Shown here: piece after piece, positions 8,937 through 60,485 of the stretch | Layout of the letters: each line of letters begins with the position of its first letter | How positions within the stretch are numbered: the stretch's first letter is position 1 | Source of the DNA: Neocallimastix lanati (nom. inval.) | Taxonomy: Eukaryota > Neocallimastigomycota > Neocallimastigomycetes > Neocallimastigales > Neocallimastigaceae | Direction: 5' to 3' | DNA: 64,000 nt | NCBI GenBank assembly: GCA_016946835.1 | Contig: JACVTC010000061.1 | Span: forward strand, 124,001 to 188,000 | Notes under the pieces: model-generated | Told to the model about the DNA's origin: nothing | Database searches by the model: none | What the model saw: the letters and a program-made list of their open reading frames with translations, nothing else | Translations under genes and position numbers: made by a program

Positions 8937-9414
8937 TAAATAATTATTGAAATATTTAATATTTTAATTAAATTTTAATAAAATTGGATAAATTTTTATT
9001 AAAATTTATTTTAGTATAATTATTCTCTAATATACTTAATATTTAAAAAAAAAAAAATAAATATATATATATATATATATAATTGTTGAAAAAAATAATA
9101 AATATTATAATGAAAAATAATTATAATAATTTTATTTAAAAAAAAAAATATTATATTTTCAAAATAAGATTTATATATATAATTTTAGTAAAATTATCCA
9201 TTTATATTAATAATATTTTAATGAGTAATATGAATCATATATATAATTCAGAAATTTTAATTTTTTATAATATTATACCCAATAAAAACATATTAAAAGT
9301 AATCTTTTTGAATATTTTTACTTAGCATATTATATTAATACTTTAAAATATTACAATTACTATGAAAAAAAAAACCCTTAAAAAAGGTTAAATTAATAAA
9401 AAAAATTATATGAA

Positions 9415-9453
<39 letters not shown>

Positions 9454-11379
9454 TAGTTCTGAAAATTTCCCATGATATATTCATGAATATTAATATTAGA
9501 TCACATTTCTAATTAAGAAATCTTACTATAAAATTATTTATATTAAAAGTAATCTTTTAAATATTATTATTTTTATAAATATTTATAATATTTAATATTA
9601 AGAAAATTTTCCTTGAAAAAGTTTTAATATTTAAATATAAAAAAGGGAAATATATAAAATTTAATGTTATTTTTATTTTAAAAAATAAATAAATTTTATT
9701 TTATTATATTAATTTATTATATTATAATCATCCATTATATAGAATTTCAAATTTATTGATATAAATAATTTTTTTTGAAATAATATAATTAAATTTAATA
9801 TAATTGGATAAAATTTTATTGAATTTTTTTATAATAAAATTTTGTTATAAAAATATAAAAATATAAATTACAAATAAATATTGATTTTATATAATTTTAT
9901 TTTAAAAACTAAAATATTAATATATAAATATTAATTTATGAATATTAATGATAATAATAAATTATATATAAAATATTAATATATAAATATTAATGTATGA
10001 ATATTAATATTATAATAAATAATTATAATAATAATAATATTATTATAAAAAACATTATTATTTTATCTAAAAACTATTTATATTTAAGTTTAGTGAATAT
10101 TTGTTTATGAATATTTATATATATATATATATATTTTTATAAAAAGAAATTCAATTATATTTATCTTATATTATTAAGTAAAACTTGTCATTTCAATACG
10201 GTTATTAAAAATATTGTATATCATATACTTTATAAATATTTTATACCTCATTTTTTAATTTATTCAATAATTTTATTATTGTTAATAAGATAATAATTTT
10301 ACATTTGGAAAATTTATTTAAATTTTATAAATTAACTATAAAAAAATTTATATAAAAAATCATAAAAAAAAAAAAAAAAAAAAAAGTGTTGAAAATTTCC
10401 CATATTAATTCAGAAATTTTAATTTTATATTATATTTTATAAAAAAATAAAATTTTAAGCATATTAAAAGTAATCTTTTAAATATTATTTATATAAATAT
10501 TTAGAGTATTTAATTTAAGAAAAATTTACTTGGAAAAGTTTTAATATTTAAATATAAAATATAAAATAGGTATATAAATTTAATATTATTGTTACTTTAC
10601 AAAATATAAAATTTATTTTATAAAACATTGCAAAATTTATTTGTATATATTTTAAAAATTTTCAATTTTAATTTATATAATATTAAATACAATAAAAACA
10701 TATTAAAAGTAATCTTTTTCAGTATTTTTACTTAGCATATTATATTAATACTTAAAAAAATTGAATTTTTATGGCATTGAAAATGGTTAATTTAATAAAA
10801 ATTTATATAATAAATTAAAATAAAAAAAAAAATTAGTTCTGAAAATTTCCCATATATAAATGATATATTAATGAATATTAATATTAAAATACATTTCTAA
10901 TTCAGAATTTTTAATATATTATTACATATTTTATAAAAAATAAAATTTAAGCATATTAAAAGTAATCTTTTAAATATTATTATTTATATAAATATTTATA
11001 ATATTTAATATTAATGAAAATTTTCCATGGAATGGTTTTATTATTTAAACATAAATTAATGATAAATATAAATTTTAATATTATTTCTATTTTAAATTAA
11101 AAAAATAAATTTTATTTTATAATTAATTTTAATTTATATAATATTATATATAATAGAAGCATATTAAAAGTAATTTTTTTGGAGTATTTTTACTTTGCAT
11201 ATTATATTAATATTTTGATATATTATTTGTTATTACTTTGAAAAAAATCCTTGAAAAAGGTTAAAATATTAGATTCAAAAAAAAAAAGTTTTTTTATATA
11301 CATTGATAAAAAGTTATATAATTATTATAAAAAATAAATTAATTACTAATATTAATAATTTTAATTTAGAAATATAATT
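8937..11379 (+). promoter_or_regulatory. Array of conserved non-coding units upstream of T1
   Basis: No gene lies here. The stretch contains about six copies of the core CATATTAAAAGTAATCTTTT (or a close variant), near 9287, 9540, 10459, 10697, 10952 and 11158. Some copies continue to TTTTTACTTAGCATATTATA. Interspersed are copies of GAAAATTTCCCAT and of TTCAGAAATTTTAAT. The same units, in the same order, precede the other transporter copies. They could be promoter/enhancer modules or simply passengers of the segmental duplications. Function is inference. Confidence 0.55.
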
Positions 11380-11549
11380 AAAAATATTTTTTAATTTGAC
11401 ATTTTTATATAAAATATTTAAAATAAATTTTAATATAAAAGAACGAAATTTTTTTTTTTTTATTTTTTTTCTTCATTATAATTATATAATAATTATAAAA
11501 TTAATTTAAGATAAAAATAATAAATATAAATTTGTAAATAAAATATAAT
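11380..11549 (+). promoter_or_regulatory. Conserved proximal promoter/leader of T1
   Basis: The last 120-170 bases before the start codon are shared by all six intact transporters. They contain AAAAGAACGAAATTTT, a poly-pyrimidine stretch ending TTCTTCATT, a palindromic ATTATAATTATATAATAATTATAA-like element, and an A-rich leader ending AAATAAAATATAAT before ATG. The order and spacing are kept, so this is probably the core promoter and 5' untranslated leader. Confidence 0.6.
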
Positions 11550-13070
11550 ATGAATTCTTTTCAATTTTTAGTGGCCGTGACCGCTTCGTTAGGTGGTCTT
11601 CTTTTCGGTTATGAATGTGGTGTCATGAATGTTGTCCTTGTAATGGATGCTTTCCGTATTTTCTTCAAGTTCCATAATTGGAATGGTGATGCCCTTGATG
11701 AAAATGGTAAAGAAATTACTAATGATTCTCAAGAAAAATGGTATCGTGATTTAAAAGAAGCTGATAATAAAGCTACCCTCGAAGGTGTTATCACTTCAAG
11801 TTTCGTTCTCGGTGCTCTTTGTGGTGCTCTCATGGCTACTTATCTTGGTGAAAGATTCGGTCGTCAAAGAACCATCATGATCGGTGCTTGTATCTTCACT
11901 TGTGGTGCTATCATTCAAGGTTTATCTGTTCGTTCTTGGATTATGATTGCTATTGGTCGTCTTATCACTGGTCTTTCTATTGGATGTAATGGTGTCCTTT
12001 GTCCAACATACATTTCTGAAGTTGCTCCAGCTAAGATCAGAGGTACTCTTTCATCTTGCTACCAACTTATGACTACTTTCGGTATTATTGTTGCTGCCAT
12101 CATTAATTCTATCGTTTGGTATTATACTAATATTAAACCAGAAGGATTAGGAGTGAAAAGATCAGATAAATGGGCAGAAGTTCCTAATTTCGAATGGAGA
12201 TTTGCACTTTTATTCCAAGTAGTTCCAGGTCTTGGTCTTGCTATTCTTATGAGTTTCCTTCCAAAATCTCCAAGATGGTTATGTTCTAAAGATCGTGATG
12301 AAGAAGCTGCTGAAGTTTTAGCTAAACTTAATGCTACTTCTACTTCTGATTCTCTTGTTCAAGAAGAACTTAAAGCTATTCAAGAAGATGTTGCCGCTAC
12401 TCGTGCTGCCGGTTCTTCTTCTGTCGGTGAACTTTTCAGTCCTGTTATTCGTCGTCGTACTTTCATTACTTTCTTAATGCAACTTTTCCAACAATGGACT
12501 GGTATTAATGTCATTATGTATTATCAATCTCAAATTTATGGTGAAATTGGATTTACTAAATTCATGTCCACTGTTGTTCTTCCAATCATTAACAACTTTG
12601 TCAATTTCATTTCAACCTTCCCAGGTATGTGGGGTATTGAAAAATTAGGACGTAAAACTTTATTAGTTATTGGATCACTTATGATGATGGTATTCCATAT
12701 TTCTACTTGGGCTTTCTCTACTCAAACCTACAAAGGAAAGTTATGGCAATATTTAGCAGTTGCTAGTATTTTCCTTATGGTCTTTTCTTTCGCTTGGACT
12801 TGGGGACCAGTTCCATGGGTTTATCAAGCTGAAGTTTTCCCACTTCGTGTCAGAGTTAAGGGTAGTGCTGTTGGTACAGTCTCTAACTTCCTTAACAATT
12901 GGATTATTGCATTTGTTGGACCAGCTCTTATGAAAGCATGGAGTACTAAGACTTTCCTTCTTTTTGCAGCTGCTTGTTTCCTCGCCTGGGTTTATTCTCA
13001 ATTCTATGTTATTGAATGTAAGGGACTCAATCTTGAAGAAATGGATGCCAAGATGGCCGGAAAAGCTTAA
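11550..13070 (+). CDS. Sugar transporter T1 (MFS, sugar porter family)
   Basis: 506-residue, intronless, 12-helix major facilitator protein, the usual length for hexose/xylose porters of the plasma membrane. Family marks: GERFGRQR at 100-107 (loop 2-3), GRLITGLSIG at 136-145, PKSPRW at 238-243 (family PESPRW), QQWTGIN at 314-320 (QQxxGxN of helix 7, sugar binding), GRKT at 367-370, and GPVPWVYQAEVFPLRVR at 419-435. The C-terminal PETKG motif appears as IECKGLNLEEMD (488-499). A hydrophilic loop at 41-75 is likely exofacial. The substrate cannot be told from sequence; glucose or xylose is likely. First gene of a tandem array, with Ile135, Val202 and Lys207. Codon use is much richer in C-ending codons than the flanks. 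Confidence 0.93.
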   Translation: MNSFQFLVAVTASLGGLLFGYECGVMNVVLVMDAFRIFFKFHNWNGDALDENGKEITNDSQEKWYRDLKEADNKATLEGVITSSFVLGALCGALMATYLGERFGRQRTIMIGACIFTCGAIIQGLSVRSWIMIAIGRLITGLSIGCNGVLCPTYISEVAPAKIRGTLSSCYQLMTTFGIIVAAIINSIVWYYTNIKPEGLGVKRSDKWAEVPNFEWRFALLFQVVPGLGLAILMSFLPKSPRWLCSKDRDEEAAEVLAKLNATSTSDSLVQEELKAIQEDVAATRAAGSSSVGELFSPVIRRRTFITFLMQLFQQWTGINVIMYYQSQIYGEIGFTKFMSTVVLPIINNFVNFISTFPGMWGIEKLGRKTLLVIGSLMMMVFHISTWAFSTQTYKGKLWQYLAVASIFLMVFSFAWTWGPVPWVYQAEVFPLRVRVKGSAVGTVSNFLNNWIIAFVGPALMKAWSTKTFLLFAAACFLAWVYSQFYVIECKGLNLEEMDAKMAGKA

Positions 13071-13460
13071 ATTTACTGAAAAGAATTCATAAATTTCAAT
13101 GAAATTTTTAATAAATAAATTTCATTAAAATAATTAATTCAAAAAATTAATTTAAAAATTAAAATTAAAAAAAAATATAAAATTAAATAAAAATTTAAAA
13201 AAAAAATATAAAAATATAAAAAATATTTAAATGTATATATATATAATACATATATTTATATATATATATATAGTATAAAACAAAGCTAATCAAATATACA
13301 AAAAAACAAAATCGACTAAAAATTGAAAACTGTTCATTTTTTTAAAAAAAAAATTGATAATAACTAATATATAATTTTTTATATAATAGTTTTATCATAA
13401 ATATAGAATATAAAACTTAAACTTAACTTAAACTTAACTAAATAAATAATAAACAATTGA
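13071..13460 (+). promoter_or_regulatory. Conserved 3' block of T1
   Basis: Shared by all six transporters. It has GAATTCATAAATTTC and an AAATTTCATTAAAATAATTAA segment, then ATAT runs, then AAAATTGAAAACTGTTCATT before T/A runs. It ends in an array of TTAAACTTAAC-type repeats (about 13410-13440). It is probably the 3' untranslated region and termination zone. Confidence 0.55.
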
Positions 13461-16400
13461 AAAAAAAAAATTTAAATAAGTATTCTTTTTTATTTTTATA
13501 ATTTTATATTATTATACTTTTTATATTTTTATTAAGGTATACAAATAATATATAAGAATATATATATATATTTAATTACATTTTCATTTTTATTTTTTAA
13601 TTAATATTTTCATTAGTTGTTGTTTTATTTGTAAATAATTTACAATTATATGATAATTAAATTTTTTATATTCCTTTAAATATTAAAAAAATATAAAATA
13701 GAAAGATGGATTAATAGAAAGTAACAGATTCTATTAAAAATTAAAAAAAAATATACATAAGTATTCTTTTTATTTTTATAATTTTTTATTATTATTATTT
13801 TATATTTTTATTAAGGTATACAAGTTATATATAAGAATATATATATATATATATAATTACATTTTCATTTTTTTTAGTTAAAATTTTCAATAGATTGTTT
13901 TATTTGTAAATAATTTTTTTCATATGACTTTAATTATTAGAAAAAATTATAAAATAGAAACATGGATTAATAGAAAGTAACAGATTCAACTAATAATTAA
14001 AGATTATAATTATAAAAAATTATTTTTTATTATATTTTTAAAAATTATATTGAATTTTCTCTGTATTTGTATAATTATTTAATATCATAACAATAGAATA
14101 ATTAAAATTTCGAATAAATACTAAAATATATATTAATGATAAAAGGCATAATTCAGTTTTTTATTTATAATTTTAATAATAATATTATTATTATATTTGT
14201 TTTAATTTATTTTTAAACTGTTAATTTTCTTATCATTTCTCTTATTATTTATTATGAAATATCTTATATAAAAAACTTTTTTTATTTATTATATAATCAT
14301 TAATATATTAATTTAAATATATATAGAATTTCAATTATAATACTTTTTAATTAAAATTTAATATAATTGGATAATTTATTACAAAAATTTATTTTTAATA
14401 TAATTGATATAAAAAAAAAAAATATAAAACTCAAATAATAATAAATATTAAAATTCATGAACTACACATATATTTTATTTAAAAAAAAATATATATTTGT
14501 TTAAAAAAAAATAAATATTATAATGAAAAATAATTATAATAATTTTATTAAAAATAAAATATTATATTTTCAAAATAAGATTATATAAATAATTTTAGTA
14601 AAATTATCCATATATATTAATAATATTTTAATGAGTAATAATATTTGATCATATATATAATTCAGAAATTTTAATTTTTTATAATATTATACCCAATATA
14701 AACATATTAAAAGTAATCTTTTTGAATATTTTTACTTAGCATATTATATTAATACTTTAAAATATTACAATTACTATGAAAAAAAAACCCTTGAAAAAGG
14801 TTAAATTAATATAAAATTGTATGAAAAATTAAAAAAAAAAATTAGTTCTGAAAATTTCCCATGATATATTCATGAATATTAATATTAGATCACATTTCTA
14901 ATTATGAAATTTTAATATAAAATTATTTATATTAAAAGTAATCTTTTAAATATTATTATTTTTATAAATATTTATAATATTTAATATTAAGAAAATTTTC
15001 CTTGGAAAAGTTTTAATATTTAAATATAAAACAGGAAATATATAAAATTTAATGTTATTTTTATTTTAAAAAATAAATAAATTTTATTTTATTATATTAA
15101 TTTATTATATTATAATCATCCATTTATAAACTTAAATATATATAGAATTTCAAATTCATTGATATAAATAATTTTTTTTGAAATAATTTAATTAAATTTA
15201 ATATAATTGGATAAAATTTTATTAAATTTTTTTATAATAAAATTTGGTTATAAAAATATAAAAATATAAATTACAAATAAATATTGATTTTATATAATTT
15301 TATTTTTAAAAACTAAAATATTAATATATAATCATTAATGTTATAATAAATAATAATAATAATATTATTATTATTATAAAAAACATTATTTTATCTAAAA
15401 AACTATTAACTATTTATATTTAAGTTTAGTAAATATTTATTTATGCATATTTATATATATATATTTTAATAAAAAGAAATTCAATTAGATTTATCTTATA
15501 TTATTAAGTAAAACATATCATTTAAATATGGTTATTAAAAATATTGTATATCATATACTTTATAAATATTTTATACCGCATTTTTTAATTTATTCAATAA
15601 TTTTATTATTGTTAATAAAATAATAATTTTACATTTGGTAAATTTATTTAAATTTTATAAATTAACTATAAAAAAATTTATATAAAAAATCATAAACAAA
15701 AAAAAAAAAAAAAAAAAGTGTTGAAAATTTCCCATAATAATTCAGAAATTTTAATTTTATTATTAAAAATAAAATTTTAAGCATATTAAAAGTAATCTTT
15801 TAAATATTATTTATATAAATATTTAGAGTATTTAATATTAGAAATTTTTCCTTGGAAAAGTTTTAATATTTAAATATAAAATATAAAATATAAAATATGT
15901 ATATAAATTTAATATTATTGTTACTTTACAAAATATAAAATTTATTTTATAAAACATTGCAAAATTTATTTGTATATATTTTAAAAATTTTTAATTTTAA
16001 TTTATATAATATTAAATACAATAAAAACATAATAAAAGTAATCTTTTTGAGTATTTTTACTTAGCATATTATATTAATACTTTAAAATATTAAATTACTA
16101 TGGCAAAAAAAATCATTGAAAAAGGTTAAATTAGTAAAAAATTTTATAAAACATTAGAAAAAAAAAAAAAAAAAAAAATTAGTTTTGAAAATTTCTCATA
16201 TATAAATGATATATTAATGAATATTAATATTAGATTTCATTTCTAATTCAGAATTTTTAATATATTATTACATATTTTATAAAAAATAAAATTTAAGAAT
16301 ATTAAAAGATATCTTTTAAATATTATTATTTATATAAATATTTATAATATTTAATATTAATGAAAATTTTCCATGGAATGGTTTTATTATTTAAACATAA

Positions 16401-16727
16401 ATTAATGATAAATATAAATTTTAATATTATTTCTATTTTAAATTAAAAAAATAAATTTTATTTTATAATTAATTTTAATTTATATAATATTATATATAAT
16501 AGAAGCATATTAAAAGTAATTTTTTTGGAGTATTTTTACTTTGCATATTATATTAATATTTTGATATATTATTTGTTATTACTTTGAAAAAAATTCTTGA
16601 AAAAGGTTAAATATTAGATTCAAAAAAAAAAAAAATAGTTTTTTTATATACATTGATAAAAAGTTATATAATTATTATATAAAATAAATTAATTACTTAT
16701 ATTAATAATTATATTTTAGAAATATAA
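13461..16727 (+). repeat. T1-T2 spacer, duplicated as the T3-T4 spacer
   Basis: No gene is seen. The spacer is nearly identical, base for base, to the DNA between T3 and T4 (about 22640-25860) except for one substituted patch. It carries about six copies of the CATATTAAAAGTAATCTTTT unit (near 14701, 14931, 15780, 16027, 16292 variant, 16504). It also carries two related segments with GGATTAATAGAAAGTAACAG (near 13708 and 13962). Confidence 0.8.
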
Positions 16728-16897
16728 TTAAAAATATTTTTTAATTTGACATTTTTATATAAAATATTTAAAATAAATTTTAATATAAAAGAACGAAATT
16801 TTCTTTAAATTTTTTTTTCTTCATTATAATTATATAATAATTATAAAATTAATTTAAGATAAAAATAATAAATATAAATTTGTAAATAAAATATAAT
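16728..16897 (+). promoter_or_regulatory. Conserved proximal promoter/leader of T2
   Basis: Same block as before T1: AAAAGAACGAAATTTTCTTT, TTCTTCATTATAATTATATA and an A-rich leader to the ATG. Confidence 0.6.
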
Positions 16898-18418
16898 ATG
16901 AATTCTTTTCAATTTTTAGTGGCCGTGACCGCTTCTTTAGGTGGTCTTCTTTTCGGTTATGAATGTGGTGTCATGAATGTTGTCCTTGTAATGGATGCTT
17001 TCCGTATTTTCTTCAAGTTCCATAATTGGAATGGTGATGCCCTTGATGAAAATGGTAAAGAAATTACTAATGATTCTCAAGAAAAATGGTATCGTGATTT
17101 AAAAGAAGCTGATAATAAAGCTACCCTCGAAGGTGTTATCACTTCAAGTTTCGTTCTCGGTGCTCTTTGTGGTGCTCTCATGGCTACTTATCTTGGTGAA
17201 AGATTCGGTCGTCAAAGAACCATCATGATCGGTGCTTGTATCTTCACTTGTGGTGCTATCATTCAAGGTTTATCTGTTCGTTCTTGGATTATGATTGCTG
17301 TTGGTCGTCTTATCACTGGTCTTTCTATTGGTTGTAATGGTGTCCTTTGTCCAACATATATTTCTGAAGTTGCTCCAGCTAAGATCAGAGGTACTCTTTC
17401 ATCTTGCTACCAACTTATGACTACTTTCGGTATTATTGTTGCTGCCATCATTAATTCTATCGTTTGGTATTATACTAATATTAAACCAGAAGGTTTAGGA
17501 GTGAAAAGATCAGATAAATGGGCAGAAGTTCCTAATTTCGAATGGAGATTTGCACTTTTATTCCAAGTAGTTCCAGGTCTTGGTCTTGCTATTCTTATGA
17601 GTTTCCTTCCAAAATCTCCAAGATGGTTATGTTCTAAAGATCGTGATGAAGAAGCTGCTGAAGTTTTAGCTAAACTTAATGCTACTTCTACTTCTGATTC
17701 TCTTGTTCAAGAAGAACTTAAAGCTATTCAAGAAGATGTTGCCGCTACTCGTGCTGCCGGTTCTTCTTCTGTCGGTGAACTTTTCAGTCCTATTATTCGT
17801 CGTCGTACTTTCATTACTTTCTTAATGCAACTTTTCCAACAATGGACTGGTATTAATGTCATTATGTATTATCAATCTCAAATTTATGGTGAAATTGGTT
17901 TTACTAAATTCATGTCCACTGTTGTTCTTCCAATCATTAACAACTTTGTCAATTTCATTTCAACCTTCCCAGGTATGTGGGGTATTGAAAAATTAGGACG
18001 TAAAACTTTATTAGTTATTGGATCACTTATGATGATGGTATTCCATATTTCTACTTGGGCTTTCTCTACTCAAACCTACAAAGGAAAGTTATGGCAATAT
18101 TTAGCAGTTGCTAGTATTTTCCTTATGGTCTTTTCTTTCGCTTGGACTTGGGGACCAGTTCCATGGGTTTATCAAGCTGAAGTTTTCCCACTTCGTGTCA
18201 GAGTTAAGGGTAGTGCAGTTGGTACAGTCTCTAACTTCCTTAACAATTGGATTATTGCGTTTGTTGGACCAGCTCTTATGAAAGCATGGAGTACTAAGAC
18301 TTTCCTTCTTTTTGCAGCTGCTTGTTTCCTCGCCTGGGTTTACTCTCAATTCTATGTTATTGAATGTAAGGGACTCAATCTTGAAGAAATGGATGCCAAG
18401 ATGGCCGGAAAAGCTTAA
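16898..18418 (+). CDS. Sugar transporter T2 (MFS, sugar porter family)
   Basis: 506 residues, intronless, differing from T1 at only two residues: Val135 in the GRxxxGxxxG helix (Ile in T1) and Ile299 (Val in T1) just before the basic RRR of the central loop/helix 7 start. All sugar-porter motifs are intact. It groups with T4 (both Val135 and shared synonymous changes), which fits a duplication of a T1-T2 block into T3-T4. Confidence 0.93.
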   Translation: MNSFQFLVAVTASLGGLLFGYECGVMNVVLVMDAFRIFFKFHNWNGDALDENGKEITNDSQEKWYRDLKEADNKATLEGVITSSFVLGALCGALMATYLGERFGRQRTIMIGACIFTCGAIIQGLSVRSWIMIAVGRLITGLSIGCNGVLCPTYISEVAPAKIRGTLSSCYQLMTTFGIIVAAIINSIVWYYTNIKPEGLGVKRSDKWAEVPNFEWRFALLFQVVPGLGLAILMSFLPKSPRWLCSKDRDEEAAEVLAKLNATSTSDSLVQEELKAIQEDVAATRAAGSSSVGELFSPIIRRRTFITFLMQLFQQWTGINVIMYYQSQIYGEIGFTKFMSTVVLPIINNFVNFISTFPGMWGIEKLGRKTLLVIGSLMMMVFHISTWAFSTQTYKGKLWQYLAVASIFLMVFSFAWTWGPVPWVYQAEVFPLRVRVKGSAVGTVSNFLNNWIIAFVGPALMKAWSTKTFLLFAAACFLAWVYSQFYVIECKGLNLEEMDAKMAGKA

Positions 18419-20609
18419 ATATTTAATGAAAAGAATTCATTAATTTCTATGAAATTGTTAATAAATAAATTTCATTAAAATAATTAATTCAAAAAAATTA
18501 ATTTAAAAATTAAAATTAAAAAAAATATAAAATTAAATAAAAATAAAAATATAAAAAATATAAAATATAAAAAATATTAAAAAATATATATAAAATATAT
18601 ATATTTATATATATATATTTATATATATAGTATAAAACAAAGCTAATCAAATGTACAAAAAATCAAAATCGACTAAAAATTGAAAACTGTTCATTTTTTT
18701 TAAAAAAAATTGATAATAACTAATATATAATATTTTATATAATAGTATTATCATAAATATAGAATATAAAACTTAAACTTAACTTAAACTTAACTTAATA
18801 AATAATAAACAATTGTAAAAATAAATATATTTATATTTTTTTTCTTGTATATTTTGTATTATTATGATTTTTTATTTTTATTAATATCTATTAGAATTAT
18901 TTTTTTTTTTAATTTTTAATTACTTTTTTATTTTTATTTTTTTTATTTTTTTAATTATATTTTCAATTGATTATTTTATTTGTGAATAATAAGGTTTTAT
19001 TATTATTAAATATTTTATAAATTAAACTTTTAATTAATAGATTAATAGAAAGTAATATTTTTTTTATTTATAAAAGATTATAATAATTATTAAGAATTAT
19101 TAATTTTTATTATATATTTTAAAATTATATTGAATTTTCAATGTAATGGTAAAATTATTTAATATCAAAACTACAGAATAATTAAATTTTTAAATAAATA
19201 TCAAAATATTAATGATAAAAAGTATGATTCAAAATTTTATTTGTATTTCTAGTAATATTATTATTATATTTATTTTAATTGTATTTATTTCTTGAACTGT
19301 TAATATCTAATTATTATTATTATTATTTTTCTTATAATTTTTCTTATAATTGTTATTATAATTTTACTTATAAATTATAAATCATCTTAAAAACTTTTTT
19401 AATATATTATATAATTATTAATATATTAATTTAAATATATAAAGAATTTCAATTATTTCGACACAAATAACTTTTTTGAAATATTTTTTTTAATTAAAAT
19501 TTAATATAATTGGATAAATTTTTATAAAAATTTATTTTTATAAAAATATAAAAATCAAATAATTATAAATATAAATATTAAAATTCATAAAGTACCAAAA
19601 ATTAATATATTAAATTAAAAAAAATATAATTATTAAAAAATAATATAACTATTAAAAAAACAATAAATATTTCAAAAAAAAATATATATATATTACTTTT
19701 ACTAAAAAGTGTTTATATATAATTTTAGTAAAATTTTCCATATATTAATTATATATTAATGAGTAATAATATTAGATTATATTTAAAATACAGAATTTTA
19801 ACATTATATAATATATATTATAAAATAAAATTTATTTAATAATATTAAATTAAATAAAAACATACTAAAAGTAATCTTTTTGAGTATTTTTAATTAGCAT
19901 ATTATATTAATACTTAAAAAAATTGAATTTTTATGGCATTGAAAATGGTTAATTTAATAAAAATTTATATAATAAATTAAAATAAAAAAAAAATTAGTTC
20001 TGAAAATTTCCCATATATAAATGATATATTAATGAATATTAATATTAGAATACATTTCTAATTCAGAAATTTTAATATAACTAATATATTTTATAAAAAA
20101 TAAAATTTAAGCATATTAAAAGTAATCTTTTAAATACTATAATTTATATAAATATTTATATTATTTAATATTAATAAAATTTTCCTTTGAAAAGTTTTAT
20201 TATTTAAATCATTTTAATATTATTTTATTTAAAAAAAATTTATTTTAAAATATTTTGTATTAGTATTTTTTTTTTTTAATGATTTAATTAAATTGTTTCA
20301 ATTTTAATTTATATAAAATTAAATATAATAGAAAAATATTAAAAGTAATCTTTTGGAAAATTTTTACTTAGCATATTATATTAATACTAGAAAATATTAA
20401 TTGCTATAATGATAGAAAAAACCTTTGAAAAATATTAAATATTAATAATAAATTCAAAATATATAATTATAAATACTGATTTAATTATATATTACTACTT
20501 TATAAATTAAAATAAAAAAAAAAATAATATTTATATTTATAATTTATAAATTTATTAAAAAATAATTATTAATTTATTGTTATGATATCGAATATTTAGA
20601 AAAAATTAT
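18419..20609 (+). promoter_or_regulatory. T2-T3 spacer: 3' block of T2 and unit array of T3
   Basis: No gene is seen. The T2 3' block, with GAAAACTGTTCATTTTTT near 18685 and TTAAACTTAAC repeats at 18772-18795, is followed by an AT-rich stretch. Then come about three copies of the CATATTAAAAGTAATCTTTT-type unit (near 19860, 20108, 20334). The distal part resembles the region before T6 more than that before T1, T2 or T4. Confidence 0.6.
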
Positions 20610-20728
20610 TTTAATATAAAAGAGTGAAATTTTCTTTAAATATTTTTTTCTTCATTATAATTATATAATAATTATAAATTTAATTTAAGATAAAAATAAT
20701 AAATATTAATTTGTAAATAAAATATAAT
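20610..20728 (+). promoter_or_regulatory. Conserved proximal promoter/leader of T3
   Basis: Same block as at the other copies, with AAAAGAGTGAAATTTTCTTT (variant also seen before T5) and the palindromic ATTATAATTATATAATAATTATAA-type element. Confidence 0.6.
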
Positions 20729-22249
20729 ATGAATTCTTTTCAATTTTTAGTGGCCGTGACCGCTTCTTTAGGTGGTCTTCTTTTCGGTTATGAATGTGGT
20801 GTCATGAATGTTGTCCTCGTAATGGATGCTTTCCGTATTTTCTTCAAGTTCCATAATTGGAATGGTGATGCCCTTGATGAAAATGGTAAAGAAATTACTA
20901 ATGATTCTCAAGAAAAATGGTATCGTGATTTAAAAGAAGCTGATAATAAAGCTACCCTCGAAGGTGTTATCACTTCAAGTTTCGTTCTCGGTGCTCTTTG
21001 TGGTGCTCTCATGGCTACTTATCTTGGTGAAAGATTCGGTCGTCAAAGAACCATCATGATCGGTGCTTGTATCTTCACTTGTGGTGCTATCATTCAAGGT
21101 TTATCTGTTCGTTCTTGGATTATGATTGCTATTGGTCGTCTTATCACCGGTCTTTCTATTGGTTGTAATGGTGTCCTTTGTCCAACATACATTTCTGAAG
21201 TTGCTCCAGCTAAGATCAGAGGTACTCTTTCATCTTGCTACCAACTTATGACTACTTTCGGTATTATTGTTGCTGCCATCATTAATTCTATCGTTTGGTA
21301 TTATACTAATATTAAACCAGAAGGATTAGGAGTGAAAAGATCAGATATTTGGGCAGAAGTTCCTAATTTCGAATGGAGATTTGCACTTTTATTCCAAGTA
21401 GTTCCAGGTCTTGGTCTTGCTATTCTTATGAGTTTCCTTCCAAAATCTCCAAGATGGTTATGTTCTAAAGATCGTGATGAAGAAGCTGCTGAAGTTTTAG
21501 CTAAACTTAATGCTACTTCTACTTCTGATTCTCTTGTTCAAGAAGAACTTAAAGCTATTCAAGAAGATGTTGCCGCTACTCGTGCTGCCGGTTCTTCTTC
21601 TGTCGGTGAACTTTTCAGTCCTGTTATTCGTCGTCGTACTTTCATTACTTTCTTAATGCAACTTTTCCAACAATGGACTGGTATTAATGTCATTATGTAT
21701 TATCAATCTCAAATTTATGGTGAAATTGGTTTTACTAAATTCATGTCCACTGTTGTTCTTCCAATTATTAACAATTTTGTCAATTTCATTTCAACCTTCC
21801 CAGGTATGTGGGGTATTGAAAAATTAGGACGTAAAACTTTATTAGTTATTGGATCACTTATGATGATGGTATTCCATATTTCTACTTGGGCTTTCTCTAC
21901 TCAAACCTACAAAGGAAAGTTATGGCAATATTTAGCAGTTGCTAGTATTTTCCTTATGGTCTTTTCTTTCGCTTGGACTTGGGGACCAGTTCCATGGGTT
22001 TATCAAGCTGAAGTTTTCCCACTTCGTGTCAGAGTTAAGGGTAGTGCTGTTGGTACAGTCTCTAACTTCCTTAACAATTGGATTATTGCGTTTGTTGGAC
22101 CAGCTCTTATGAAAGCATGGAGTACTAAGACTTTCCTTCTTTTTGCAGCTGCTTGTTTCCTCGCCTGGGTTTATTCTCAATTCTATGTTATTGAATGTAA
22201 GGGACTCAATCTTGAAGAAATGGATGCCAAGATGGCCGGAAAAGCTTAA
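20729..22249 (+). CDS. Sugar transporter T3 (MFS, sugar porter family)
   Basis: 506 residues, intronless. It is identical to T1 except Ile207 in place of Lys207 (SDIWAEV instead of SDKWAEV) in the hydrophilic segment before helix 6. This is the only charge-changing substitution confined to one of the four tandem copies. All MFS sugar-porter motifs are intact. Its downstream spacer is the twin of that after T1. Confidence 0.93.
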   Translation: MNSFQFLVAVTASLGGLLFGYECGVMNVVLVMDAFRIFFKFHNWNGDALDENGKEITNDSQEKWYRDLKEADNKATLEGVITSSFVLGALCGALMATYLGERFGRQRTIMIGACIFTCGAIIQGLSVRSWIMIAIGRLITGLSIGCNGVLCPTYISEVAPAKIRGTLSSCYQLMTTFGIIVAAIINSIVWYYTNIKPEGLGVKRSDIWAEVPNFEWRFALLFQVVPGLGLAILMSFLPKSPRWLCSKDRDEEAAEVLAKLNATSTSDSLVQEELKAIQEDVAATRAAGSSSVGELFSPVIRRRTFITFLMQLFQQWTGINVIMYYQSQIYGEIGFTKFMSTVVLPIINNFVNFISTFPGMWGIEKLGRKTLLVIGSLMMMVFHISTWAFSTQTYKGKLWQYLAVASIFLMVFSFAWTWGPVPWVYQAEVFPLRVRVKGSAVGTVSNFLNNWIIAFVGPALMKAWSTKTFLLFAAACFLAWVYSQFYVIECKGLNLEEMDAKMAGKA

Positions 22250-25200
22250 ATTTAAAGAAAAGAATTCATAAATAAATTTCAATGAAATTTTTTAATAAAT
22301 AAATTTCATTAAAATAATTAATTCAAAAAATTAATTTAAAAATTAAAATTAAAAAAAAATATAAAATTAAATAAAAATTTAAAAAAAAAAAATATAAAAA
22401 TATAAAAAATATTTAAATGTATATATATATAATACATATATTTATATATATATATAGTATAAAACAAAGCTAATCAAATATACAAAAAAACAAAATCGAC
22501 TAAAAATTGAAAACTGTTCATTTTTTTAAAAAAAAAATTGATAATAACTAATATATAATTTTTTATATAATAGTTTTATCATAAATATAGAATATAAAAC
22601 TTAAACTTAACTTAAACTTAACTAAATAAATAATAAACAATTGAAAAAAAAAAATTTAAATAAGTATTCTTTTTTATTTTTATAATTTTATATTATTATA
22701 CTTTTTATATTTTTATTAAGGTATACAAATAATATATAAGAATATATATATATATTTAATTACATTTTCATTTTTATTTTTTAATTAATATTTTCATTAG
22801 TTGTTGTTTTATTTGTAAATAATTTACAATTATATGATAATTAAATTTTTTATATTCCTTTAAATATTAAAAAAATATAAAATAGAAAGATGGATTAATA
22901 GAAAGTAACAGATTCTATTAAAAATTAAAAAAAAATATACATAAGTATTCTTTTTATTTTTATAATTTTTTATTATTATTATTTTATATTTTTATTAAGG
23001 TATACAAGTTATATATAAGAATATATATATATATATAATTACATTTTCATTTTTTTTAGTTAAAATTTTCAATAGATTGTTTTATTTGTAAATAATTTTT
23101 TTCATATGACTTTAATTATTAGAAAAAATTATAAAATAGAAACATGGATTAATAGAAAGTAACAGATTCAACTAATAACTAAAGATTATAATTATAAAAA
23201 ATTATTTTTTATTATATTTTTAAAAATTATATTGAATTTTCTCTGTATTTGTATAATTATTTAATATCATAACAATAGAATAATTAAAATTTCGAATAAA
23301 TACTAAAATATATATTAATGATAAAAGGCATAATTCAGTTTTTTATTTATAATTTTAATAATAATATTATTATTATATTTGTTTTAATTTATTTTTAAAC
23401 TGTTAATTTTCTTATCATTTCTCTTATTATTTATTATGAAATATCTTATATAAAAAACTTTTTTTATTTATTATATAATCATTAATATATTAATTTAAAT
23501 ATATATAGAATTTCAATTATAATACTTTTTAATTAAAATTTAATATAATTGGATAATTTATTACAAAAATTTATTTTTAATATAATTGATATAAAAAAAA
23601 AAAAATATAAAACTCAAATAATAATAAATATTAAAATTCATGAACTACACATATATTTTATTTAAAAAAAAATATATATTTGTTTAAAAAATAATAAATA
23701 TTATAATGAAAAATAATTATAATAATTTTATTAAAAATAAAATATTATATTTTCAAAATAAGATTATATAAATAATTTTAGTAAAATTATCCATATATAT
23801 TAATAATATTTTAATGAGTAATAATATTTGATCATATATATAATTCAGAAATTTTAATTTTTTATAATATTATACCCAATATAAACATATTAAAAGTAAT
23901 CTTTTTGAATATTTTTACTTAGCATATTATATTAATACTTTAAAATATTACAATTACTATGAAAAAAAAAACCCTTGAAAAAGGTTAAATTAATATAAAA
24001 TTGTATGAAAAATTAAAAAAAAAAATTAGTTCTGAAAATTTCCCATGATATATTCATGAATATTAATATTAGATCACATTTCTAATTATGAAATTTTAAT
24101 ATAAAATTATTTATATTAAAAGTAATCTTTTAAATATTATTATTTTTATAAATATTTATAATATTTAATATTAAGAAAATTTTCCTTGGAAAAGTTTTAA
24201 TATTTAAATATAAAACAGGAAATATATAAAATTTAATGTTATTTTTATTTTAAAAAATAAATAAATTTTATTTTATTATATTAATTTATTATATTATAAT
24301 CATCCATTTATAAACTTAAATATATATAGAATTTCAAATTCATTGATATAAATAATTTTTTTTGAAATAATTTAATTAAATTTAATATAATTGGATAAAA
24401 TTTTATTAAATTTTTTTATAATAAAATTTGGTTATAAAAATATAAAAATATAAATTACAAATAAATATTGATTTTATATAATTTTATTTTTAAAAACTAA
24501 AATATTAATATATAATCATTAATGTTATAATAAATAATAATAATAATATTATTATTATTATAAAAAACATTATTTTATCTAAAAAACTATTAACTATTTA
24601 TATTTAAGTTTAGTAAATATTTATTTATGCATATTTATATATATATATTTTAATAAAAAGAAATTCAATTAGATTTATCTTATATTATTAAGTAAAACAT
24701 ATCATTTAAATATGGTTATTAAAAATATTGTATATCATATACTTTATAAATATTTTATACCGCATTTTTTAATTTATTCAATAATTTTATTATTGTTAAT
24801 AAAATAATAATTTTACATTTGGTAAATTTATTTAAATTTTATAAATTAACTATAAAAAAATTTATATAAAAAATCATAAACAAAAAAAAAAAAAAAAAAA
24901 AGTGTTGAAAATTTCCCATAATAATTCAGAAATTTTAATTTTATTATTAAAAATAAAATTTTAAGCATATTAAAAGTAATCTTTTAAATATTATTTATAT
25001 AAATATTTAGAGTATTTAATATTAGAAATTTTTCCTTGGAAAAGTTTTAATATTTAAATATAAAATATAAAATATAAAATATGTATATAAATTTAATATT
25101 ATTGTTACTTTACAAAATATAAAATTTATTTTATAAAACATTGCAAAATTTATTTGTATATATTTTAAAAATTTTTAATTTTAATTTATATAATATTAAA

Positions 25201-25865
25201 TACAATAAAAACATAATAAAAGTAATCTTTTTGAGTATTTTTACTTAGCATATTATATTAATACTTTAAAATATTACAATTACTATGAAAAAAAAACCCT
25301 TGAAAAAGGTTAAATTAATATAAAATTGTATGAAAAATTAAAAAAAAAAATTAGTTCTGAAAATTTCCCATGATATATTCATGAATATTAATATTAGATC
25401 ACATTTCTAATTATGAAATTTTAATATAAAATTATTTATATTAAAAGTAATCTTTTAAATATTATTATTTTTATAAATATTTATAATATTTAATATTAAG
25501 AAAATTTTCCATGGAATGGTTTTATTATTTAAACATAAATTAATGATAAATATAAATTTTAATATTATTTCTATTTTAAATTAAAAAAATAAATTTTATT
25601 TTATAATTAATTTTAATTTATATAATATTATATATAATAGAAGCATATTAAAAGTAATTTTTTTGGAGTATTTTTACTTTGCATATTATATTAATATTTT
25701 GATATATTATTTGTTATTACTTTGAAAAAAATTCTTGAAAAAGGTTAAATATTAGATTCAAAAAAAAAAAAAATAGTTTTTTTATATACATTGATAAAAA
25801 GTTATATAATTATTATATAAAATAAATTAATTACTTATATTAATAATTATATTTTAGAAATATAA
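22250..25865 (+). repeat. T3-T4 spacer, twin of the T1-T2 spacer
   Basis: No gene is seen. It follows the T1-T2 spacer almost base for base from the T3 stop to about 25270, including runs and ATAT tracts. Between about 25272 and 25503 it instead carries a second copy of its own segment 23945-24185. It then rejoins the T2-type promoter-distal sequence. Unit copies lie near 23884, 24114, 24963, 25209, 25437 and 25643; TTAAACTTAAC repeats lie at 22601-22623. Confidence 0.8.
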
Positions 25866-26035
25866 TTAAAAATATTTTTTAATTTGACATTTTTATATAA
25901 AATATTTAAAATAAATTTTAATATAAAAGAACGAAATTTTCTTTAAATTTTTTTTTCTTCATTATAATTATATAATAATTATAAAATTAATTTAAGATAA
26001 AAATAATAAATATAAATTTGTAAATAAAATATAAT
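25866..26035 (+). promoter_or_regulatory. Conserved proximal promoter/leader of T4
   Basis: Same block as before T2, almost identical (AAAAGAACGAAATTTTCTTT and the following leader). Confidence 0.6.
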
Positions 26036-27556
26036 ATGAATTCTTTTCAATTTTTAGTGGCCGTGACCGCTTCTTTAGGTGGTCTTCTTTTCGGTTATGA
26101 ATGTGGTGTCATGAATGTTGTCCTTGTAATGGATGCTTTCCGTATTTTCTTCAAGTTCCATAATTGGAATGGTGATGCCCTTGATGAAAATGGTAAAGAA
26201 ATTACTAATGATTCTCAAGAAAAATGGTATCGTGATTTAAAAGAAGCTGATAATAAAGCTACCCTCGAAGGTGTTATCACTTCAAGTTTCGTTCTCGGTG
26301 CTCTTTGTGGTGCTCTCATGGCTACTTATCTTGGTGAAAGATTCGGTCGTCAAAGAACCATCATGATCGGTGCTTGTATCTTCACTTGTGGTGCTATCAT
26401 TCAAGGTTTATCTGTTCGTTCTTGGATTATGATTGCTGTTGGTCGTCTTATCACTGGTCTTTCTATTGGTTGTAATGGTGTCCTTTGTCCAACATATATT
26501 TCTGAAGTTGCTCCAGCTAAGATCAGAGGTACTCTTTCATCTTGCTACCAACTTATGACTACTTTCGGTATTATTGTTGCTGCCATCATTAATTCTATCG
26601 TTTGGTATTATACTAATATTAAACCAGAAGGTTTAGGAGTGAAAAGATCAGATAAATGGGCAGAAGTTCCTAATTTCGAATGGAGATTTGCACTTTTATT
26701 CCAAGTAGTTCCAGGTCTTGGTCTTGCTATTCTTATGAGTTTCCTTCCAAAATCTCCAAGATGGTTATGTTCTAAAGATCGTGATGAAGAAGCTGCTGAA
26801 GTTTTAGCTAAACTTAATGCTACTTCTACTTCTGATTCTCTTGTTCAAGAAGAACTTAAAGCTATTCAAGAAGATGTTGCCGCTACTCGTGCTGCCGGTT
26901 CTTCTTCTGTCGGTGAACTTTTCAGTCCTGTTATTCGTCGTCGTACTTTCATTACTTTCTTAATGCAACTTTTCCAACAATGGACTGGTATTAATGTCAT
27001 TATGTATTATCAATCTCAAATTTATGGTGAAATTGGTTTTACTAAATTCATGTCAACTGTTGTTCTTCCAATCATTAACAATTTTGTCAATTTCATTTCA
27101 ACCTTCCCAGGTATGTGGGGTATTGAAAAATTAGGACGTAAAACTTTATTAGTTATTGGATCACTTATGATGATGGTATTCCATATTTCTACCTGGGCTT
27201 TCTCTACTCAAACCTACAAAGGAAAGTTATGGCAATATTTAGCAGTTGCTAGTATTTTCCTTATGGTCTTTTCTTTTGCTTGGACTTGGGGACCAGTTCC
27301 ATGGGTTTATCAAGCTGAAGTTTTCCCACTTCGTGTCAGAGTTAAGGGTAGTGCAGTTGGTACAGTCTCTAACTTCCTTAACAATTGGATTATTGCATTT
27401 GTTGGACCAGCTCTTATGAAAGCATGGAGTACTAAGACTTTCCTTCTTTTTGCAGCTGCTTGTTTCCTCGCCTGGGTTTACTCTCAATTCTATGTTATTG
27501 AATGTAAGGGACTCAATCTTGAAGAAATGGATGCCAAGATGGCCGGAAAAGCTTAA
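26036..27556 (+). CDS. Sugar transporter T4 (MFS, sugar porter family)
   Basis: 506 residues, intronless, Val135 like T2 but Val299 like T1. Otherwise identical to T1. All motifs are intact (GERFGRQR, PKSPRW, QQWTGIN, PWVYQAEVFP). Last copy of the left tandem array. The mosaic of T1- and T2-type residues suggests conversion between copies. Confidence 0.93.
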   Translation: MNSFQFLVAVTASLGGLLFGYECGVMNVVLVMDAFRIFFKFHNWNGDALDENGKEITNDSQEKWYRDLKEADNKATLEGVITSSFVLGALCGALMATYLGERFGRQRTIMIGACIFTCGAIIQGLSVRSWIMIAVGRLITGLSIGCNGVLCPTYISEVAPAKIRGTLSSCYQLMTTFGIIVAAIINSIVWYYTNIKPEGLGVKRSDKWAEVPNFEWRFALLFQVVPGLGLAILMSFLPKSPRWLCSKDRDEEAAEVLAKLNATSTSDSLVQEELKAIQEDVAATRAAGSSSVGELFSPVIRRRTFITFLMQLFQQWTGINVIMYYQSQIYGEIGFTKFMSTVVLPIINNFVNFISTFPGMWGIEKLGRKTLLVIGSLMMMVFHISTWAFSTQTYKGKLWQYLAVASIFLMVFSFAWTWGPVPWVYQAEVFPLRVRVKGSAVGTVSNFLNNWIIAFVGPALMKAWSTKTFLLFAAACFLAWVYSQFYVIECKGLNLEEMDAKMAGKA

Positions 27557-57493: not shown

Positions 57494-59014
57494 TTAAGCT
57501 TTTCCGGCCATCTTGGCATCCATTTCTTCAAGATTGAGTCCCTTACATTCAATTACATAGAACTGAGAGTAAATCCAGGCAAGAAGACAAGCAGCTGCAA
57601 AAAGAAGGAAAGTCTTAGTACTCCATGCTTTCATAAGAGCTGGTCCAACAAATGCAATAATCCAATTATTAAGGAAGTTAGAGACTGTACCAACAGCACT
57701 ACCCTTAACTCTGACACGAAGTGGGAAAACTTCAGCTTGATAAACCCATGGAACTGGTCCCCAAGTCCAAGCAAAAGAAAAGACCATAAGGAAAATACTA
57801 GCAACTGCTAAATATTGCCATAACTTTCCTTTGTAGGTTTGAGTAGAGAAAGCCCAGGTAGAAATATGGAATACCATCATCATAAGTGATCCAATAACTA
57901 ATAAAGTTTTACGTCCTAATTTTTCAATACCCCACATACCTGGGAAGGTTGAAATGAAATTGACAAAATTGTTAATAATTGGAAGAACAACAGTGGACAT
58001 GAATTTAGTAAATCCAATTTCACCATAAATTTGAGATTGATAATACATAATGACATTAATACCAGTCCATTGTTGGAAAAGTTGCATTAAGAAAGTAATG
58101 AAAGTACGACGACGAATAACAGGACTGAAAAGTTCACCGACAGAAGAAGAACCGGCAGCACGAGTAGCGGCAACATCTTCTTGAATAGCTTTAAGTTCTT
58201 CTTGAACAAGAGAATCAGAAGTAGAAGTAGCATTAAGTTTAGCTAAAACTTCAGCAGCTTCTTCATCACGATCTTTAGAACATAACCATCTTGGAGATTT
58301 TGGAAGGAAACTCATAAGAATAGCAAGACCAAGACCTGGAACTACTTGGAATAAAAGTGCAAATCTCCATTCGAAATTAGGAACTTCTGCCCATTTATCT
58401 GATCTTTTCTTTCCTAATCCTTCTGGTTTAATATTAGTATAATACCAAACGATAGAATTAATGATGGCTGCAACAATAATACCGAAAGTAGTCATAAGTT
58501 GGTAGCAAGATGAAAGAGTACCTCTGATCTTAGCTGGAGCAACTTCAGAAATGTATGTTGGACAAAGGACACCATTACATCCAATAGAAAGACCAGTGAT
58601 AAGACGACCAATAGCAATCATAATCCAAGAACGAACAGATAAACCTTGAATGATAGCACCACAAGTGAAGATACAAGCACCGATCATGATGGTTCTTTGA
58701 CGACCGAATCTTTCACCAAGATAAGTAGCCATGAGAGCACCACAAAGAGCACCGAGAACGAAACTTGAAGTGATAACACCTTCGAGGGTAGCTTTATTAT
58801 CAGCTTCTTTTAAATCACGATACCATTTTTCTTGAGAATCATTAGTAATTTCTTTACCATTTTCATCAAGGGCATCACCATTCCAACTATGGAACTTGAA
58901 GAAAATACGGAAAGCATCCATTACAAGGACAACATTCATGACACCACATTCATAACCGAAAAGAAGACCACCTAACGAAGCGGTCACGGCCACTAAAAAT
59001 TGAAAAGAATTCAT
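57494..59014 (-). CDS. Sugar transporter T5 (MFS, sugar porter family)
   Basis: 506 residues, intronless. It differs from T1 at Ser43 (Asn), Lys202 (Val), Leu477 (Phe) and Ile481 (Val). All of these are shared with T6 and not with T1-T4, so T5 and T6 form a sub-group. All sugar-porter motifs are intact. On the minus strand, divergent from T6 across a 2.8 kb region. Confidence 0.93.
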   Translation of the reverse strand: MNSFQFLVAVTASLGGLLFGYECGVMNVVLVMDAFRIFFKFHSWNGDALDENGKEITNDSQEKWYRDLKEADNKATLEGVITSSFVLGALCGALMATYLGERFGRQRTIMIGACIFTCGAIIQGLSVRSWIMIAIGRLITGLSIGCNGVLCPTYISEVAPAKIRGTLSSCYQLMTTFGIIVAAIINSIVWYYTNIKPEGLGKKRSDKWAEVPNFEWRFALLFQVVPGLGLAILMSFLPKSPRWLCSKDRDEEAAEVLAKLNATSTSDSLVQEELKAIQEDVAATRAAGSSSVGELFSPVIRRRTFITFLMQLFQQWTGINVIMYYQSQIYGEIGFTKFMSTVVLPIINNFVNFISTFPGMWGIEKLGRKTLLVIGSLMMMVFHISTWAFSTQTYKGKLWQYLAVASIFLMVFSFAWTWGPVPWVYQAEVFPLRVRVKGSAVGTVSNFLNNWIIAFVGPALMKAWSTKTFLLFAAACLLAWIYSQFYVIECKGLNLEEMDAKMAGKA

Positions 59015-59135: not shown

Positions 59136-60444
59136 TAAAATAGAATATAATGTACTATTAATTAATTGTAAATTAATATAAAAAATGGAAAATTAAAATA
59201 ATATAAAATAAAAACATTATTAAAGGGTTTTTCATTATTTAAATGCTATAAATTGAAAGAAAATATTATGCTCTTAGTTCAGTACAATCAATTATTTTTA
59301 ATTTAAAAACATATATATATATTTTTAAATTTAAATATTATTATTATATATATTTAAAAAAACCTCCGTTGTGTTTAATTATTGTAATATTTTAAGTATA
59401 ATTATAATATGCTAAGTAGTACTAATTTTATAGATTATTTTTAATATGCTTAATATATTATATTTAAAATAATCTCAAATATTAATATTCATAATATATA
59501 TGGGGAAAATTTAATTCTTTAAATTTAATTACTAATTAATTATATATATATTTTTTTAAATTATTGAATTTTATATAAAAATACATTGAAACTTATGACA
59601 ATAAACAAGTAAAAAATGGAAATATAAATAATATTCATATTTAATAACATTTTTTATTTATCACAAATTATTAAATTTTAATGTTCATATCTTATATACT
59701 TTGTTTTTTTTTATATTAATTTCTATATTTAATAAAAATATTGAATAAACTATAAAATGTACCTCTAATTTTTTATATTTTACATTTAAACTTTTTTAAT
59801 AAAGGTTTTTTAATGAAATAAGATAAAACTTTTTTTCAAATAAAATAAAACTTTTTTTTCAAATAAAATAAAAATTATTTAGATATAAGTTCATACTAAT
59901 AAAAAATTTTATGATTTATATATAAATTATATGAATTTATCTCTCTCTCTATATATATAAATATATTTGTATAGATAAAAATATAAAGTATTTCAAACAT
60001 ATAAAATATATTTATATATATTTTATTATATATTTAAAATATTGCTTTTAAAATTTATCTGTATATAAAGAATTAAAGAAATATAAAACATACATAAAGT
60101 TTAATTGAAGAACATTATTTATTCAAATTAACATTTTATATTAAATTAATTGTTTTCTATCCAAAATTTAGCATTAATAATAATAGCAAATGATAAAAAT
60201 AAATAATATTGATAACAAGAATGGTAATAAGTTTAATAAATAAAAAATGCAAATTATTATATGGTTATTAATTATATTTATTTAATAATACTATTTTGAA
60301 TAGTAATAATATTATTTAAAATTTATAGACTTAAAATATAATTTAAAAAAATAAATATTTATAAAATTAATATAAATACTTTTAATATTAAATTAATATA
60401 TAAACTTTTTATTTGACGTTATTTATAATTTAAAAGTATAATTT

Positions 60445-60485
<41 letters not shown>

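Follow-up and report, generated by a model that had tools for sequence, protein, structure and literature searches.

The 64,000-nucleotide stretch of the Neocallimastix lanati genome considered here (the window; GenBank JACVTC010000061.1, hereafter contig C566, C566:124001-188000) carries six sugar-transporter genes, whose upstream regions hold arrays of a short conserved non-coding unit. T1 (11550..13070), T2 (16898..18418), T3 (20729..22249), T4 (26036..27556) and T6 (61788..63308) lie on the forward strand and T5 (57494..59014) on the reverse strand. Two further members, T7 and T8, begin just past the end of the window, with their ATGs at C566:189617 and C566:193520, so that the cluster on this contig comprises eight genes. 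Their protein belongs to the Pfam Sugar_tr family (E 2e-118), and its best relatives of solved structure are GlcP, the sugar transport proteins 10 and 6 and hexose transporter 1. The coding DNA of T1-T8 is only 0.4-2.3% apart; the spacer DNA has a GC content of ~9%. A table in PMC12341934 gives 187-201 Mb and ~18% GC for Neocallimastix genomes, and the one that we searched amounts to 199 Mb in 762 contigs. Against it the T1 protein yielded at least 85 scored matches of 74-100% identity (from 174 first-look candidates). Of these 85 matches, 75 are on contigs carrying at least two, several of which have near-identical proteins; in three of the 85 a single TGA stop breaks a near-complete frame (C746:522109-523587, C3:319110-320624 and C190:591875-593374).

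The repeated unit is built on a 20-bp core, CATATTAAAAGTAATCTTTT, which at up to three mismatches is found at 26 places in the window, compared to 0.36 expected from 100 shuffles (largest 3). A second half, which accompanies some of the cores, is found at 13 places versus 0.37 expected (largest 2). Counted per gene at the same threshold, there are six cores before each of T1, T2 and T4, three before T3, one before T5, four before T6 and three before each of T7 and T8. All 32 cores detected in the eight promoters (1.0-2.65 kb scanned per gene) are co-oriented with their gene. The original prediction had given these numbers for T1-T6 and had located the array at positions 8937-26035: the units are indeed there, but they extend further, with the T5 and T6 copies at 59403-61447 and those of T7 and T8 past the window.

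With four mismatches allowed, 33 units were detected; a loose T5 match at -1041 was dropped, and alignment of the other 32 separated them into two kinds: 18 A units and 14 B units. The A unit, about 46 bp long, consists of the core, ~6 bp and then TTTTTACTTAGCATATTATA; its half-site, TTACTTAGC, starts 5-7 bp after the core in 17 of the 18 units and 12 bp after it in the remaining one. The B unit has the core without the half-site, followed by a different AT-rich tail, and most B units are preceded by GAAAATTTCCCAT and TTCAGAAATTTTAAT. Both kinds hold related blocks around TTCAGAAATTTTAAT and CCTTGAAAAAGGTTAA. Thus, the second half said earlier to follow many cores at 10-20 bases is present, but at a shorter distance and only in the A units, while the direct recurrence noted alongside it is real: a CATATTA repeat, whose copies are 37 bp apart in the first unit.

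The basic promoter order is A(-870) B(-610) A(-390) followed by a TATA-like box near -115 (negative numbers count back from the start of the gene), and the parts of the module are the A half-site, the core, the CCCAT and TTCAG boxes and the TATA-like box. The A units were mapped by combined core and half searches and the B cores by core searches; all those listed are on the forward strand except that of T5. T3, T7 and T8 display A-B-A at about -870, -610 and -390, the T3 units being an A at 19861..19906 (-868), a B core at 20112..20131 (-617) and the proximal A at 20335..20380 (-394). T6 combines the same order with a loose B, and its distal A is decaying: a degenerate B-like core at 60725..60744 (-1063) and a degenerate A unit at 60963..61007 (-825), both from the core search, are followed by a B core at 61264..61283 (-524) and the proximal A at 61402..61447 (-386). 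T5 retains the proximal A alone (59403..59448, reverse strand, -434), which is the main upstream island that it has in common with the other genes besides the TATA/5' region.

T1, T2 and T4 have the longer arrangement A-B-B-A-B-A. Before T1 it comprises an A unit at 9289..9334 (-2261), B cores at 9539..9558 (-2011) and 10460..10479 (-1090), and then the basic layout of distal A at 10699..10744 (-851), B at 10952..10971 (-598) and proximal A at 11160..11206 (-390). The T2 set is an A unit at 14703..14748 (-2195), B cores at 14928..14947 (-1970) and 15782..15801 (-1116), an A unit at 16028..16073 (-870), a B core with three mismatches at 16298..16317 (-600) and the proximal A at 16506..16552 (-392). 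In T4 the corresponding positions are 23886..23931 (A, -2150), 24112..24131 (B, -1924), 24966..24985 (B, -1070), 25212..25257 (A, -824), 25437..25456 (B, -599) and 25644..25690 (proximal A, -392). Units are mostly spaced by 138-301 bp, with some larger intervals. Across all eight genes the proximal A falls between -370 and -434 and a TATAAAR box between -114 and -120 (in T1 it is TATAAAAG at 11434..11441, -116), some promoters having further TATAAAR copies; between about -90 and -40 the promoters hardly vary.

Genome-wide searches, made by patterns with mismatches, placed all 13 exact cores and 12 of the 14 one-mismatch cores in the C566 cluster. The other two (on C323 and C446) have no half-site near them, and none of the 85 transporter matches is on those contigs; a loose second core match (up to four mismatches) is found near the one on C446. 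The A composite (a 34-bp pattern with 28 fixed bases, up to three mismatches) has 12 matches in the 199 Mb, all in the cluster, and none for the control, and the half extended to 24 bases has 21, of which 17 are in the cluster, versus seven for the control. The composite is hence confined to the C566 cluster. An even spread of hits over the genome, set out beforehand as the outcome that would tell against a link with transporters, was not seen; however, with exact cores and composites confined in this way, the link comes down to a single duplication family without independent recurrence. At up to two mismatches the core has 157 places versus 59 for a reversed control, and among the places listed many are one other sequence, TATATTAAAAGTAATATTTT. 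This sequence occurs in same-direction pairs ~7-8 kb apart on several contigs (e.g. C31:520433 and 527659), a spacing that would be expected of the two long terminal repeats (LTRs) of a retrotransposon.

We also examined 48 promoters of other family members (202,114 bases, some common to divergent genes); the remaining 29 of the 77 further matches were covered by the genome-wide patterns only. In forward orientation these promoters contain no core (up to three mismatches; 0.9 in shuffles), half (three; 0.8), TTACTTAGCATA (one; 1.5) or GAAAATTTCCCAT (one; 0.6), and CCTTGAAAAAGGTTAAA is found once (three; 0.8). The TTCAGAAATTTTAAT box is not private to the cluster: at up to one mismatch it occurs five times versus 0.9 in shuffles (largest 2), each time at a distance of 2.7-3.8 kb before genes on C746 or C500. 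Accordingly, the statement that the unit stands before every transporter gene holds for all eight genes of the C566 cluster but not for a single one of the 48 promoters examined elsewhere, and a general promoter element of the transporter family can be set aside.

A sister cluster on C746 offers a possible antecedent. It has eight genes, of which the seven without an interrupting stop are 95-96% identical in protein, and in seven of its eight promoters CATATTAATAGTAGACCTTG is found once, at -376 to -462. At up to two mismatches CATATTAATAGTAGACCTTG has six exact copies and one one-mismatch copy in the 199 Mb, all in C746 promoters. The C746 site and the core have the 13-mer CATATTAAWAGTA in common, which has no exact copy on either strand, and five with one mismatch, in the remaining 40 promoters (170,139 bases). 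Aligned locally in pairs, T6 or T8 matches some of the C746 promoters over both the core and the TATA-like region, and among all 48 others the T promoters score best with those of C746 (both comparisons made without a shuffle control). The C746 site may represent the single-copy ancestor of the array, although the homology is uncertain.

The internal organization of the arrays points to repeated duplication. Local alignment of the distal A with the B region scores 131 in T3 versus a maximum of 60 in 200 shuffles, mostly through the stretch before the core; the corresponding scores are 68 versus 55 in T1 and, barely above chance, 64 versus 60 in T8. The distal A and B are thus most simply seen as duplicates of one module, and the alignments, most clearly that of T3, support their probable descent from it. 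The six sites of T1, T2 and T4 go back to a further duplication that took in ~1.4 kb of promoter: these promoters show self-similarity at a distance of ~1.4 kb (9253-10050 versus 10664-11455, 72%). Block alignments among T1-T4 span 3.3-8.8 kb at 87-94% identity.

Units also exchange sequence by gene conversion, of which T4 provides one event. Here, distal A-B sequence occupies the proximal A-B place over a forward-strand tract of 223-275 bp (25277-25499 at its shortest, 25236..25510 at its longest) that includes the B core at -599. Inside the tract 77 of 78 informative columns are of the distal type (gap columns counted singly), while outside it 143 of 145 are of the proximal type and two match neither. 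In the nine pairs tested that do not involve T5, the upstream flanks differ by 1.7-19.6% in substitutions and have many indels besides; for T5 against either T6 or T8 the figure is 38-45%. T5 has the most diverged promoter, mostly unrecognisable upstream, yet its coding DNA is just 1.05% from that of T1 (1.91% for T6). This suggests that the coding regions have been homogenised by gene conversion.

To compare the sites with their flanks we used the region from -930 to -200 in T1, T3, T6, T7 and T8. Site columns have an alikeness of 0.905 versus 0.733 for the other columns, a value reached by 13 of 729 circular shifts when the test is limited to columns present in T8 and gaps are counted, and by 15 of 729 on substitutions only. 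In pairwise comparisons with gaps counted, all 11 pairs, which overlap and hence are not independent, have sites that are less divergent than the flanks (p <0.05); on substitutions alone, six of the 11 do. Gap columns make up a smaller share of the sites than of the flanks in every pair, and the advantage of the sites is mainly one of fewer indels. Even in T5, the best local match of the upstream region is the stretch with the A unit when it is aligned with T8 (98 versus 77, the maximum of 200 shuffles), T6 (96 versus 82) or T3 (84 versus 77). The cores were originally described as remaining recognisable in DNA that drifts freely: the lower divergence at the sites agrees with this in part, but "freely" is too strong, as the B module, from -750 to -570, is as conserved between its cores as at the cores themselves. 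This implies that conservation extends beyond the core to a larger unit.

Taken together, these observations incline us, with some reserve, to the view that the arrays arose by duplication of an upstream regulatory module and form a homotypic cluster of putative binding sites, akin to an upstream activating sequence (UAS), in the promoters of one eight-gene sugar-transporter cluster. The position of the sites upstream of a TATA-like box, their fixed direction, the island that outlasts the change of its flanks in T5 and the variation in site number all fit such a module. Of the roles floated for the unit at the outset, that of transcription-factor sites is the one that we would favour from the sequence features, given the uniform orientation, the proximal site and TATAAAR box in every gene, and the lower divergence at sites, which has exceptions. 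A putative DNA-binding protein would read the A and B sites, with their number possibly setting expression strength; the copies spread with the genes by block duplication, and units exchange sequence through gene conversion, as seen once in T4. A bolder version appears to us a long shot: that a regulator dedicated to this cluster alone recognises the 46-bp A unit, forming a private control system under which the eight near-identical transporters, with their 1-6 cores, are expressed in a graded, coordinated or exclusive manner.

Promoter modules duplicated within amplified transporter families are in themselves a known kind of arrangement; the papers listed by our literature searches showed no description of this sequence or of any cis-element of gut-fungal transporter promoters. 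Like homotypic clusters of transcription-factor sites and fungal UASs, the C566 arrays have several copies of a short motif, here co-oriented, upstream of a TATA-like box, with numbers that vary between paralogous promoters: from one to six across the eight genes, with several in seven of them, well beyond chance. Unlike them, the site is long (a 20-bp core in a 46-bp unit), belongs to a single locus and has no known factor; recurrence at unrelated promoters, which is common in such clusters though not strictly required, was not observed in the composite and core searches above. A second parallel is promoter-internal duplication in amplified families whose coding regions are homogenised by gene conversion. 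The closely similar coding DNA, the more diverged upstream flanks and the observed conversion tract recall such families, whereas in C566 the duplicated segment persists as separate conserved islands rather than as a uniform repeat, and coding conversion is indirectly deduced. The arrays provide a concrete, testable promoter module for a gut-fungal transporter cluster, and the eight promoters, with 1-6 cores before nearly the same protein, constitute a natural dosage series. If the sites work, they show regulatory sites multiplying along with an amplified uptake gene. If they do not, the locus clearly illustrates how constraint can be imitated by duplication and conversion.

The latter is the main rival to an upstream activating module, and we regard it as possible though on the whole doubtful. 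Under it, the units are what remains of recent tandem and block duplications, alike by recency and conversion and devoid of a regulatory role, the cores standing out as the least repetitive bits of a background of ~9% GC. The long T1-T4 blocks, the ~1.4 kb self-similarity of the promoters, the small distances between the coding regions and the T4 tract are all in its favour, and several further results weigh against a regulatory role. The site-versus-flank tests are biased towards constraint, since the sites were picked for their likeness, and the T4 tract indicates that the likeness among units is partly due to conversion; together, this ascertainment and the tract weaken the case for selection. 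In its first form, which took insertion columns into account, the shift test did not reach significance (200 of 885 shifts, or 202 of 885 with T5), and the test of T5 against the others over all sites gave 260 of 729, T5 keeping the proximal unit only. Substitution shows no deficit at sites between T6 and T7 (0.202 versus 0.189 in the flanks) and is hardly lower between T6 and T8 (0.047 versus 0.056). The local match of T5 with T1 (90) stays below the shuffle maximum (101), that with T7 has the A unit as second best (69 versus 81), and the proximal A of T8 does not align with B above 200 shuffles (63 versus 69). Moreover, binding sites are usually short and reused, and the composite is private to the cluster; the 15-bp inner core (up to two mismatches) occurs about as often in the 48 other promoters as chance would give (13 versus 12.3). 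As for C746, CATATTAATAGTAGACCTTG at up to three mismatches shows no excess (34 versus 53 for the reversed control), and a multiple alignment sets the C746 site opposite the CCTTGAAAAAGG block. What a relic accounts for less readily is the scale of the islands: conversion gives long tracts, not the 20-45 bp islands in diverged DNA seen between T5 and T8 or between A and B. Also against it are the consistently lower share of gap columns at the sites and a proximal site and TATA-like box that hold their position in all eight genes.

The other explanations fare worse. That the cores are recombination elements, promoting the unequal exchange or conversion behind the amplification of the genes, strikes us as improbable. 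The 5' border of the T4 tract does fall between 25236 and 25277, in or beside an A half-site, and two block alignments begin, at 10644 and 15973, 55 bp upstream of a distal A core. Yet these two positions are homologous to each other in duplicated promoters and count once, any homologous exchange is expected to have its border within a long stretch of identity, and other amplified clusters (C746, C3 and more) are without the composite. The earlier suggestion of a repeat that seeds duplication is partly borne out, as to the conversion tract and the duplicated segment of T1, T2 and T4, but nothing shows the core causing gene duplications. A structured or regulatory RNA in a long 5' leader would suit the location of all copies on the sense strand of the gene, but we give it almost no credence: the window has no Rfam match at gathering scores, RNAalifold finds no consensus pairs among 14 A units, and the sites are upstream of the TATA-like box. 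The partly inverted halves first reported shrink to a 6-bp match (AAGTAA/TTACTT, read directly), which means little in DNA so AT-rich. Hardly any more credible is a mobile repeat, such as a miniature inverted-repeat transposable element (MITE) or LTR piece, inserted before the genes: two weak DNA matches (66-68% identity; C208 and C1) are upstream of frames that are gag-like by eye, but neither locus holds a core or half at up to four mismatches, and with every exact core and composite in the cluster, copies of a dispersed element at unrelated places are not found.

A tandem satellite or minisatellite is likewise rejected, as the spacings between units vary and uniform head-to-tail copies are not found. 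Tandem Repeats Finder, which can miss arrays under ~70% alike, reported no 200-270 bp period over 9.3-11.2, 14.7-16.6 or 19.8-20.4 kb among the 150 of 315 rows listed (to ~22.4 kb). A minisatellite of 57-62 bp does occur on C48, with 43 copies (up to three mismatches) between two divergent transporter-family members, and its direction flips within the spacer, with 33 copies one way and 10 the other. The C566 arrays resemble it in having repeated copies between transporter genes; unlike its head-to-tail copies, their units mostly stand 138-301 bp apart and are alike only as islands.

The window further contains two multidomain genes in opposite directions, at 38218-41379 (reverse strand) and 48197-51475 (forward strand). 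No core at up to three mismatches is found near them, indicating that the module is not common to them. The product of the former has three GH11 xylanase domains, linkers rich in proline, alanine and glutamine and a C-terminal polysaccharide deacetylase domain (Pfam); judged by sequence, that of the latter has the same domain make-up.

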